Program-made: the position numbers and the translations under genes
Notes under the pieces: model-generated
What the model was told of the DNA's origin: nothing
The model's database searches: none
What the model saw: only the letters and a program-made list of their open reading frames with translations
Shown here: piece after piece, positions 27,536 to 32,859 of the stretch
Numbering within the stretch: the first letter of the stretch is position 1
How the letters are laid out: every line of letters begins with the position of its first letter
Source of the DNA: an uncultured Pelagibacteraceae bacterium
Lineage (GTDB): Bacteria > Pseudomonadota > Alphaproteobacteria > Pelagibacterales > Pelagibacteraceae
DNA: 64,000 nucleotides
NCBI GenBank assembly: GCA_902592985.1
Contig: CACJGR010000001.1
Span: 1-64,000 of the forward strand
Direction of reading: 5' to 3'

Positions 27536-28225
27536 TTATCTGCTAAGCAAGTTTATAATCTTTTTAATTCCCGATTTTTTTGAAGAAAGTTTTGATACCA
27601 TCAAACAAGCTTGTGATTTTAAAATTTCACCATCCTTTAAACTTCTTAAACTATTAGCTTTTAATGTTGCGCCCGTGCTTGTTATATCTGATATTGCTTC
27701 TGCAGTACCAGTAAATGGAGATACCTCGGTGCTTCCTAGACTTTTAACTAATTGAAATTGTGTCACTCCTTTTGAATACAAAAATTGTCTAGTTAAATTT
27801 GGATATTTAGTTGCAACTCTTAAAAGTCTTTTTTTCTTTTTTTTAAATTCGTCAGCTACTTCATCTAAATCTAATAGTGTTTGAACATCTATCCACAAAT
27901 CTGGAATAGCTATAACTAAATTTGCACTACCAAAATTATATCTTTTGTTTATTAAAATTTTATTCTGTACATTGATTTCGCTCTCTTTAAACAAATCATA
28001 CCCTGAAAAACCAATATCGATATTGCCCAATGATAATTGCTCAATGCACTCTCTAGCATGTAAATAAATAATTTTAACATTGGAATGTTTTTTAATATAA
28101 CCAAATAAATCTCTTTCTCCTCTTTCAGAGTAAAGATTTAATTTCTTCTTTTTAAAAATATTAATTGTTTCATGTTTTAATCTTCCCTTTGAAGGAATTC
28201 CTATATTAATAATACTTTTAGTCAT
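27536..28225 (-). CDS. hisG: ATP phosphoribosyltransferase catalytic subunit (short form)
   Basis: IGIPSKGRLKHETINIF; GFSGYDL; FTGTAEAISDITSTGATLKAN. Confidence 0.95.
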   Translation of the reverse strand: MTKSIINIGIPSKGRLKHETINIFKKKKLNLYSERGERDLFGYIKKHSNVKIIYLHARECIEQLSLGNIDIGFSGYDLFKESEINVQNKILINKRYNFGSANLVIAIPDLWIDVQTLLDLDEVADEFKKKKKRLLRVATKYPNLTRQFLYSKGVTQFQLVKSLGSTEVSPFTGTAEAISDITSTGATLKANSLRSLKDGEILKSQACLMVSKLSSKKSGIKKIINLLSR

Positions 28226-29273
28226 ATAAATTCATGTTTACAGCAGCACCTACTGCGGAAACTTTTCTAAATCCTAAATTGCTAGTTAAATGGTCGTATC
28301 TTCCACCTTGAAGTAGGGTTATAAATTTTGATTTAATTTTTACTTCTATAGAAAAAATCATTGAACTATAAAATTCAACTTCTCTGCCATTAGCAGCTGA
28401 AAATTCTATTTTTAAGTTTTTATTATTACTTTTGTTTAAAGGAAAAAAACCTTTACCAACAATTACATTAATTTTATTTTTTTTAAAAAATGCATTTAAA
28501 ACTTTGGGTGCTTCTTTTAATGGACATTTTATTTTTAAAAATTGTTTTATTATATTTGTATTCTTTTTCCCAGTTGATGAACTTCTCGGATCTTTAATCT
28601 TCATATTAAATCTATCCAATACTTCTTTATAAGTTCTACCCGCAATTATTTTACTTTGGTTTTCTTTTCTCATTTTTTGATATCTCGATTTATCTGTTTC
28701 AACAAATACTGGGTCTATATCTGAATTTGTTTCTAATCTTTTTAACAATTCGTTAAAATAATTTTCATTCCAGTAATATCTTTTAAGTCTATTTTTCCAT
28801 CTTCTTGGAATATCTAGTTTATCAATTAACAAATTAAACAATTCAACATTGCCAATTTTTAAAACTGACTTTTTAAAACCACTGCTTTTTAAAATTTTTA
28901 AAGATGTATCTATAATTTCTTCGTCATCTTTCTGTTTGTTCTTAGAGCCTAGAATTTCATATCCAATTTGATTTTTTATAATGCTATCTTTTTTTTGGTA
29001 ATTTTTTCTAAACGCTTCACCGGTATAAAAAATTTTTTCTCTAATGTCTTTTTTGTTTTGGATAAATCTTATTACTGAGGAAATTGTTAAGTCTGGTCTT
29101 AAACAAAGTTCCCTTCCATTTAAATCATAAAATGAAAATAAGAATTTCTTAAAATTTTCCCCGGATCTTTGAAGGATATATTTACTTTCGAGAACGGGAT
29201 CTAATGTAATATTGCTAAAACCCTTGGACTTAATAGATCTAAGGATTTTTTCAGATAATTTTTTTGATTTCAT
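28218..29273 (-). CDS. hisZ: ATP phosphoribosyltransferase regulatory subunit, class II aaRS-like
   Basis: HisRS-like motif (LCLRPDLTISSVIRFI; GGRYDHLTSNLGFRKVSAVGAAVNM) next to short hisG. Confidence 0.88.
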   Translation of the reverse strand: MKSKKLSEKILRSIKSKGFSNITLDPVLESKYILQRSGENFKKFLFSFYDLNGRELCLRPDLTISSVIRFIQNKKDIREKIFYTGEAFRKNYQKKDSIIKNQIGYEILGSKNKQKDDEEIIDTSLKILKSSGFKKSVLKIGNVELFNLLIDKLDIPRRWKNRLKRYYWNENYFNELLKRLETNSDIDPVFVETDKSRYQKMRKENQSKIIAGRTYKEVLDRFNMKIKDPRSSSTGKKNTNIIKQFLKIKCPLKEAPKVLNAFFKKNKINVIVGKGFFPLNKSNNKNLKIEFSAANGREVEFYSSMIFSIEVKIKSKFITLLQGGRYDHLTSNLGFRKVSAVGAAVNMNLYD

Positions 29274-30642
29274 TTATTAGACTTTCTCTTGAAACAGTTT
29301 TTTGATCATTTTCTTTTAAAGACTTTAATTTTTTTATAGTGAATTTATTTTCTTTAATCTCATACTCACCCATTATAATAGCAACTGAAGAACCTTTTTT
29401 ATCTGCATAATTTAATTGTTTTTTTAAATTTTTTGATGAATCCAAATATAATTCGGAACTTATTCCATTGTCTCTTAAATAATCTAAAGTTTCATAATAT
29501 TTTTTTAAATATTTTTTGTCTAAAATACAAATAAGAACTGGCTCATTATTTTTTGTTTTAATTGAGTTAATTTGACTTAAAACAAATAGCAATCTATCTA
29601 CTCCAATGCTCATTCCTGTTCCTGGAAAGTCTACTCCCTTAAATCTTGATACAAGTTTGTCATAACGACCTCCGGAAGCAATACTTCCAATGTCTACTTC
29701 TTTTCCTTTTGAATTTTTAACTTTAAAATTAAGATTAGTTTCTATACAAAATCCATCATAATAATCTAAGCCACGCACAATATTAAAATTAGTCTTTATA
29801 AATTCTTGATATTTTCCATAACTTATAATTTCTAAAAGATCTTCAGTTTCTTTTATTCCTTCAACTGATAAAGGGTTTTTTAAGGCTAATTTTAAATCTT
29901 TCAAATCTCTGATTTTTAAAAAATTTATAATCTCTGAAGCTTGAGTTTCAGATAAATCTGCTCCTTTGGTCACTGCTCCAGATGAATCTAGTCTTTCTTT
30001 TTTAAGAAGGTCTTCTACGCCTTTTAAACCAACTCTATCAAGTTTATCAATTGCTCTAATTACTTTTAATTCTTGAGATTTGTCAGAAATTTTTAACTCA
30101 TTAATCAATCCTTGAATTATTTTTCTATTACTAATGCTTACTTTAAATTGTTTTTTGCTTAGTCCACATTTTGTCAAAGTATCAGCAATAATGTTACAAA
30201 TTTCAGCATCTGTTTGGCTTGCATTGACATTTCCAATAATATCTACATCGGCTTGAGTAAATTCACGATACCTTGCATTTCCACTTTTTTCGTTTCTCCA
30301 AACATTTCCTATTGCATATCTTTTATATGGAAAAGAAAGTTCTCTATAATTTTGAGCAACAAACCTACTTAAAGGACTACTTAAATCATATCGAAGTGTA
30401 ATTTTTTCATTACCATCATTAAATGTGAATACATCAGACATGGGATTATCTTCATCGTCTGCTAAAAACGAACCTATATTTTTACTAATCTCAAAAGATG
30501 GTGTCTCTAAAGGGCTAAAACCATAATTTAAAAAATTATTTTCTATGGTTTTAACTAACCATTTTTTTAGAGTTAATCTTTTACTCCATCTATCTTCAAA
30601 ACCTGAAGGTAGTCCAGGTATTAATTTTTCTTTTTTCTTCAT
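29251..30642 (-). CDS. hisS: Histidyl-tRNA synthetase
   Basis: LPSGFEDRWSKR; TLRYDLSSPLSRFVA; REFTQADVDIIG; ASGGRYDKLVSRF; true ATG at 30642, because the tracked start lies inside tRNA-His. Confidence 0.95.
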   Translation of the reverse strand: MKKKEKLIPGLPSGFEDRWSKRLTLKKWLVKTIENNFLNYGFSPLETPSFEISKNIGSFLADDEDNPMSDVFTFNDGNEKITLRYDLSSPLSRFVAQNYRELSFPYKRYAIGNVWRNEKSGNARYREFTQADVDIIGNVNASQTDAEICNIIADTLTKCGLSKKQFKVSISNRKIIQGLINELKISDKSQELKVIRAIDKLDRVGLKGVEDLLKKERLDSSGAVTKGADLSETQASEIINFLKIRDLKDLKLALKNPLSVEGIKETEDLLEIISYGKYQEFIKTNFNIVRGLDYYDGFCIETNLNFKVKNSKGKEVDIGSIASGGRYDKLVSRFKGVDFPGTGMSIGVDRLLFVLSQINSIKTKNNEPVLICILDKKYLKKYYETLDYLRDNGISSELYLDSSKNLKKQLNYADKKGSSVAIIMGEYEIKENKFTIKKLKSLKENDQKTVSRESLINEIKKII

Positions 30643-30645
30643 TTT

Positions 30646-30720
30646 TGGTACCGCCTCTTGGAATTGAACCAAGATTGAGAGTTCCACAAACTCCAGGATT
30701 AACCATTATCCGAAGGCGGC
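30646..30720 (-). tRNA. tRNA-His(GTG), CCA encoded
   Basis: Manual cloverleaf: GCCGCCT/AGGCGGT acceptor, D-stem GGAT/ATCC, anticodon stem GGAGT-TTGTGGA-ACTCT, TTCAATT T-loop, A73 plus CCA; anticodon at 30685-30687. Confidence 0.95.
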
Positions 30721-30772
30721 ATCCTTTCTTTGTTTTATACTAATTGTTATTAAATTTAAATTTATAAAATGA

Positions 30773-30847
30773 TTAAATTGCTAGCGGGCAGCCAGCATGC
30801 GAATGATGTCTGTGAGAATTTCTTGATACTTTAATTTTTTTAATCAT
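30773..30847 (-). promoter_or_regulatory. Candidate histidine leader-peptide ORF (24 aa: MIKKIKVSRNSHRHHSHAGCPLAI)
   Basis: ATG to TAA ORF with 4 His in 6 residues, directly upstream of tRNA-His/hisS/hisZ/hisG on the same strand; overlaps hairpin 30780-30796 and inverted repeat 30769-30777/30839-30847. Confidence 0.6.
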
Positions 30848-30854
30848 TGCGCGT

Positions 30855-30882
30855 TAAATAACACTTATTTTAATAAATGCAA
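30855..30882 (-). promoter_or_regulatory. Candidate promoter (-35 TTGCAT, 16-nt spacer, -10 TATTTA) placing the start site at about the leader ATG
   Basis: Hexamer spacing on the minus strand upstream of the leader ORF. Confidence 0.35.
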
Positions 30883-30902
30883 GTAGGTTTTGCATAGGAA
30901 CA

Positions 30903-30927
30903 GAAAAAGCTTTTTTTAGCTTTTAAA
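30903..30927 (-). terminator. Possible terminator downstream of the cold shock gene
   Basis: Minus strand AAAAGCT-aaaaa-AGCTTTTT hairpin ending in a T run. Confidence 0.45.
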
Positions 30928-30956
30928 ATCCCTATACAAATTTATGTGAATTAGAA

Positions 30957-31575: not shown

Positions 31576-32859
31576 CTATTTTCTCCTAATTCTTAATTCG
31601 ACAGATTTAGCGTGTCCTTCTAAACCTTCGAAATTTGCAAGAGTTATAACTGAAGGACCAAGAGTTTCAATACCCTTTTTTGATAAATTTATATATGAAA
31701 TTCTTTTATAAAAATCATAAACACTTAATCCCGATGAAAATTTAGCAGATCCAGATGTTGGTAATACATGATTAGGTCCGGCCAAATAATCTCCTACTGC
31801 CTCTGTAGAATATTTGCCAAGAAAAATAGAACCAGCATTAGTGATTCTATTTACAATATTTTTATAATTTTTTATATTTAACTCTAAATGTTCCGGAGAA
31901 ATTTTATTAATTACTTCAATCAATTTTTGGTCTGATGAAACACATATTAAAATTCCATTAGACTCTAAACTTTTAGTAGCGATTAATTTCCTTGGTAATT
32001 TTTTTAATTGTTTAAATAATGATTCTTTAACTTTTTTAATAAGATTTTTATCTTTTGAAATTAATATACTTTGTGATAGTTCATCATGTTCTGCTTGGGC
32101 AATTAAATCAGATGCGACCCAATTAGGATTGCTATATTTATCACCCACAACAGTAATTTCTGATGGTCCAGCAATCATATCAATTCCAGCGTCGCCAAAT
32201 ACTTTTTTTTTAGCAGTCGTCACATATAAATTACCTGGACCAACAATTTTATTAACTTTAATAATTTTTTTCGTACCGTATGCAAGAGTTGCTATTGCTT
32301 GGGCTCCACCGATAGAATAAATTTCTTTAATTCCACACTTTTTTGCCGCATATAAAACACCTGAATTTTGCTTTCCTTTGTTTCTTGGATTAACCATAAC
32401 TATTCTTTTGACTCCAGCAATAACTGCAGGAATCGCATTCATTAATACAGTGCTTGGATAAGAGGCTGTTCCTCCAGGAACATATATTCCAACAGAGTCT
32501 ATCGGCATATATTTATAGTTTAATTTATTTTGTAATTTGTCTTTATAAAAAATATTTTTTACTTTTTGCTTTGAGTGAAATTGAAAAATTCTGTTATATG
32601 CAAGATCAATAGATTTTTTAACTTTTTTATCTAGTTTTTTAATTTGTTTTTGGATTTCTTTAGGTCTTGAAAAAATTACAGAATTTTTTCCAAATTTTTT
32701 TTCATACTTTATAAGTGCTTTATGTCCATTTTTTTTGATATCTTCAATTATGCTTACAACTATATTTGAATCAAATTTTATTGTTTTTTTTCTTTTTAAA
32801 AGCAAATTGTCCAATGAAGAACAAAAGTTTTTTTTTTTACTATCTAAAATTTTAATCAT
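31576..32859 (-). CDS. hisD: Histidinol dehydrogenase
   Basis: [72 protein letters not shown]. Confidence 0.97.

Follow-up and report, generated by a model that had tools for sequence, protein, structure and literature searches.

Histidine leaders and related attenuators

Cells of the SAR11 order are among the most abundant in the ocean, and they have streamlined genomes with few known regulators. In the tnaC system, a stalled ribosome shields the message from Rho, and free tryptophan is sensed through a conserved nascent peptide. The leader of the enterobacterial his operon has been modelled (PMC1183508). Naville and Gautheret (2010, PMC2965389) predicted a His leader peptide in bacilli, upstream of hisZ and a paralogue of hisS, and reported no similarity between the leaders of Firmicutes and those of Proteobacteria. 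Structured RNAs of a SAR11 genome were surveyed in 2009, in a text that contains neither hisS nor histidine (PMC2704228).

The window analyzed here is a stretch of 64,000 nucleotides from an uncultured Pelagibacteraceae bacterium (contig CACJGR010000001.1, assembly GCA_902592985.1). It contains a short His-rich open reading frame (ORF) which, judged from comparative sequence, is probably the leader of an attenuator that senses His-tRNA and controls tRNA-His, hisS, hisZ and hisG in the SAR11 order.

The leader ORF

The ORF and its proposed regulatory codons are located as follows.

30773-30847, minus strand: His-rich leader ORF of 24 codons plus stop, with ATG at 30847 and TAA ending at 30773; peptide MIKKIKVSRNSHRHHSHAGCPLAI
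30797-30814, minus strand: regulatory His block, codons 12-17 (CAC AGA CAT CAT TCG CAT)

The coordinates, the minus strand and the translation given in the original prediction were exact when read from the sequence. Four His codons within six had also been claimed, and these were confirmed at 30814-30797 of the minus strand, with CAC at 30814-30812 and CAT at 30808-30806, 30805-30803 and 30799-30797, so that four of six residues of the peptide are His. The core described as GC-rich indeed contains 15 G+C among the 22 positions of 30800-30779, as counted on the sequence, and its flanks are AT-rich.

When the 236-nt intergenic region was shuffled 20,000 times under a first-order Markov null, 2 shuffles contained an ATG ORF with four His in six residues, and no second ORF of this kind was found on either strand of the window. 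The complete genome of a relative, G043, served as the genome-wide null for His-clustered short ORFs. Its 335 upstream regions contain 257 short ATG ORFs, only one of which has at least three His in seven residues, and this one is the His leader. A chance ORF was rejected on the basis of the shuffles and of the leader being the sole such ORF in G043. The leader showed no match to known RNA and protein families. The Rfam covariance model of the His leader gave no match at the gathering score or at E values up to 10, and no T-box riboswitch was matched before hisS in Rfam scans.

The downstream operon

The genes behind the leader, and one further element, are the following.

30646-30720, minus strand: tRNA-His with GTG anticodon, first gene of the operon
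29251-30642, minus strand: hisS, histidyl-tRNA synthetase (Pfam domain), with its ATG 4 nt past the CCA end of the tRNA
28218-29273, minus strand: hisZ, ATP-phosphoribosyltransferase regulatory subunit, HisS-like (Pfam domain)
27536-28225, minus strand: hisG, ATP phosphoribosyltransferase (Pfam domain)
30737-30742, minus strand: TAGTAT, a conserved TA-rich block ahead of tRNA-His and a possible extra -10 element

The predicted placement of the leader ahead of tRNA-His, hisS, hisZ and hisG on the same strand holds, with HisS, HisS-like and HisG domains identified by Pfam. The genes downstream of the leader all concern histidine. The genes hisS, hisZ and hisG overlap in the window, and the gene order is conserved in relatives. 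At two related loci (L157 and L165), hisZ and hisG do not adjoin and are separated by about 0.8 kb, indicating that something has been inserted in the operon there.

The start of hisS is most likely the ATG at 30642, rather than that of a longer GTG ORF. The distance from the CCA end of tRNA-His to the start of hisS is 3-6 nt (mostly 4) in 59 of 61 distinct sequences, which necessarily places tRNA-His and hisS on one transcript. After 3' processing of the tRNA, the hisS message itself would be nearly leaderless.

In the window and at L003, L005, L012, L014, L016, L061 and L158, position 73 of tRNA-His is A, and a G-1 is not consistently encoded. The body of this tRNA diverges strongly among clades behind similar leaders, with HisS identities as low as 46-55%; the leader may have been kept while the tRNA-His/HisS pair behind it was swapped. 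The gene hisD, encoding histidinol dehydrogenase (31576-32859), is located on the same strand about 0.7 kb upstream, before infA, tRNA-Phe and cspA.

Distribution and leader clades

A search with the peptide as query returned matches in 27 of 197 family genomes, some of them by chance, and in 152 of 399 genus genomes. Because a query of 24 residues misses divergent leaders, the survey was anchored on hisS and the upstream DNA was read. Among hisS-anchored loci of the genus, which were not chosen for a leader, 50 of 51 were recognized automatically as carrying one. At the exception (L077), the promoter spacing is unchanged and the ORF carries a single His ahead of the hairpin. In the other genera of the family, all 18 informative loci have a leader as well. 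In the sister family, an 11-codon leader (HHHYHI, clade F; e.g., MFKFKHHHYHI) precedes hisS at 20 of 20 loci, with no tRNA-His between leader and hisS. The test set beforehand for the original prediction was conservation in relatives; where these share the gene order, they retain the ORF on the same strand, with its start, frame and His codons. No comparable sense-strand leader, at three His in seven, was found at 50 other alphaproteobacterial hisS loci (20 of HisS/HisZ type and 30 others); the exceptions there were a single unrelated ORF upstream and, on the opposite strand, two further ORFs. A general alphaproteobacterial feature is ruled out by these outside loci.

The leaders of the family belong to several clades, namely THRHHxHAGCxLAI (clade A, the window type), STHRxCFHSL (clade B), STLRxxLKGTSRxxHxHFHAG (clade C), SHSHRMHAxLLLS (clade D) and THRHHPHAxH (clade E). 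In 93 distinct leaders of the window type, His is present at codons 12, 14, 15 and 17 in 86, 91, 91 and 93 sequences, respectively, the last His, beside the hairpin H1 described below, being the most conserved, and the first third of the peptide drifts. His codons kept amid such drift are as would be expected of regulatory codons and not of a working peptide. The synonymous excess at the codon level is small (0.30 observed versus 0.26 expected), as expected if only the His codons matter. Within the family, the ORF is 17-38 codons long, and the start and the frame up to the hairpin-proximal His are kept. Some leaders have just one or two His codons.

Predicted promoter and transcription start

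Two promoter elements are predicted ahead of the leader.

30877-30882, minus strand: TTGCAT, predicted -35 element, its first T 35 nt upstream of the leader ATG
30855-30860, minus strand: TATTTA, predicted -10-like element, with T at -13 and A at -12 conserved position-wise

The string TTGCAT-N16-TATTTA, from which a leaderless start had been proposed, is present; the two elements are 16 nt apart, and TATTTA is 7 nt from the leader ATG. The spacing to ATG is conserved in relatives, with TTG at 34-36 nt before ATG in 158 of the 158 clade A-D leaders used (133 of them at 35), a constancy that is partly imposed by the 33-37 nt window in which candidates were searched. In the sister family, TTG is found 35-36 nt before the leader ATG. 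The upstream layout of clade E differs from that of clades A-D. A spacing of 34-36 nt puts the expected transcription start at the AUG, and we infer that transcription starts on or beside it, which would yield a near-leaderless mRNA.

In a generic promoter scan, no site reached the consensus. CTTGAAT/TTGAC-like elements occur ahead of several other tRNAs in the genome of the window. No Shine-Dalgarno-like motif was found in 132 distinct leaders, and this motif is rare in the lineage anyway. A genome-wide check for leaderless genes as a habit of the lineage gave no clear peak at 35 nt. A palindrome of the type TGTATAGG...CCTATGCA, located at 30884-30945 and separating cspA from the leader promoter, is conserved in relatives as TTGTATAGGAAT...ATTCCTATACAA; it is possibly the terminator of cspA or a repeat.

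Hairpin H1 and other RNA structures

One hairpin and one candidate helix are associated with the 3' part of the leader.

30779-30797, minus strand: hairpin H1 (TGCTGGC-TGCCC-GCTAGCA), beginning on the final base of the last His codon
30768-30777, minus strand: 3' strand of a possible long-range helix P1, pairing with the start-codon region at 30848-30839 (AATGATTAAA/TTTAATCATT)

H1 is the most conserved structural feature and was absent from the original prediction. Counted as a stem of at least 6 bp with at least three G-C pairs whose start falls between -2 and +1 nt relative to where the last His codon ends, it adjoins this codon in 88 of 91 distinct relatives versus 13 of 1820 shuffles. The stems vary by clade with the pairing kept (GCTGGC/GCTAGC, GCTAAGC/GCTTAGC, ATAGCC/GGCTAT, GCAAGC/GCTTGC and ATGGC/GCCAT). 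The 8 nt after H1 contain 4-6 U in clades A and B and mostly 2-4 in clades C and D. A scan of the window for intrinsic terminators found none, and neither consensus nor single-sequence folding revealed an antiterminator or an alternative partner for H1. Pairing between H1 and the tRNA, inspected by eye, was inconsistent between tRNA types.

In clade D, an extra hairpin spans the His block and shows compensatory changes (CATTC/GAATG, CACAC/GTGTG and CACTC/GAGTG), and clade C has one upstream of the block. The existence of helix P1 is modestly supported by sequence comparison; it outscores swapped partners in clades A, B and D and gives no signal in clade C. In the sister family (L110-L129), a conserved hairpin is found downstream of the leader, followed by a detached ACCCC(T/C)TTTTT-like stretch and then hisS.

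Proposed mechanism and alternative explanations

Sequence comparison shows that the ORF, its frame, the His codons, the position of H1 and the promoter spacing are conserved and that the tRNA and hisS are co-transcribed. The leaderless start, translation of the leader and the direction of the histidine response are predictions. In the proposed mechanism, transcription would start on or beside the leader AUG and ribosomes would load at the 5' end. With little charged tRNA-His available, the ribosome would wait at the His codons, chiefly the last, and cover H1, as suggested by an invariant last His codon that touches the hairpin. RNA polymerase would then continue into tRNA-His, hisS, hisZ and hisG. 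With ample charged tRNA-His, the ribosome would pass and depart, H1 would form, and transcription would stop more often before the tRNA. The role of H1 as the stop signal, acting via weak intrinsic or Rho-dependent termination, is the least secure part of this mechanism; the case for it is close to evenly balanced, leaning slightly to the negative. In the attenuator layout first proposed, the conserved His ORF before its cognate genes stands, whereas a terminator/antiterminator pair is not visible and the U-run, fair in clades A and B, is poor in C and D. Points counting against an attenuator are the lack of a canonical terminator and of an alternative partner for H1, the TA-rich block, and the leaders with one or two His codons.

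A serious alternative retains the sensor and replaces the switch with control by Rho or by pausing. The C-rich, G-poor RNA of the His codons, H1, or both would serve Rho or RNA-polymerase pausing, and the stalled ribosome would act as a shield with no intrinsic terminator involved. This carries a substantial, if minority, probability. It agrees with the poor U-run of clades C and D, with the occurrence of intrinsic-terminator-like hairpins on only 6 of 60 convergent strands of G043, and with the failure of folding to find an antiterminator, but the U-rich tail after H1 in clades A and B does not favor it. It is unlikely that H1 is instead a pausing or antitermination element formed by a stall at the first His codon, with the stop signal elsewhere. 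The geometry would permit this, since a ribosome at the first His codon leaves H1 free and one at the stop codon covers part of it, and clades C and D have extra hairpins ahead of their last His codons, in agreement with it. However, no other stop signal is visible from H1 to the tRNA, and the most conserved His codon is the one touching H1.

The leader might also be made but be of minor importance, affecting only read-through from upstream, if tRNA-His and hisS were run from a promoter at the TA-rich block. TAGTAT/TAATAT/TAAGAT-like blocks are indeed conserved 10-20 nt before tRNA-His, but TTG occurs between H1 and the block in 0 of 156 sequences, and the family-wide conservation of the His codons and H1 would be left unexplained; this explanation is quite improbable. 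A function of the peptide itself, such as metal binding, could be read into the His cluster and the Cys of the window's version. The remainder of the peptide is not conserved, other clades have 1-3 His and no Cys, no protein family is matched, and the ORF always precedes hisS, so there is very little to be said for such a function. Still less credible is a chance ORF over structured RNA. The conserved H1 does overlap the ORF, but the His codons, start and frame are kept across lengths of 17-38 codons and different stems, the shuffles gave only the 2 cases in 20,000, and the simple form of this explanation is refuted by the order-wide survey.

In the distinct design considered in the last paragraph, the sensor would regulate the very tRNA that decodes it, along with the charging enzyme and the first step of the pathway, and 3' processing of the tRNA, 4 nt ahead of the hisS AUG, would free the message from which hisS is translated. 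An order-wide His-sensing leader would couple the tRNA, the synthetase and the first committed step of the pathway in a very compact feedback. It would also make attenuation testable where the genome has few intrinsic terminators.

Comparison with known systems

The SAR11 leader resembles the enterobacterial hisL attenuator in that histidine genes are preceded by a short leader ORF in which His codons cluster. It differs from hisL in lacking a visible multi-hairpin terminator/antiterminator, in its proposed control of tRNA-His and hisS as well, and in its predicted leaderless start. The bacilli leader (PMC2965389) likewise has a His-codon ORF upstream of hisZ/hisS-type genes, but it belongs to another phylum, is defined by a Rho-independent terminator and, as described, has no tRNA gene in the unit. 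The trpL leader of Sinorhizobium meliloti (PMC7298713) is also an alphaproteobacterial leader ORF; its RNA starts at the ATG, as is predicted here, whereas its codons are for Trp and it forms mutually exclusive antiterminator and terminator structures. A route without an intrinsic terminator may be shared with tnaC, but the SAR11 peptide drifts, unlike that of tnaC.

The His leader is a known kind of regulator, and its SAR11 member is new as far as the open literature was searched. A distinct order-wide design, in which a leaderless His ORF touches a single hairpin with its last codon, no antiterminator is used, Rho or pausing is the probable switch, and the first gene is the decoding tRNA, is conceivable but rather doubtful. 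The SAR11 layout is a variant in which the tRNA gene comes first, the control codon is touched by a single hairpin, and the start is predicted to be leaderless.
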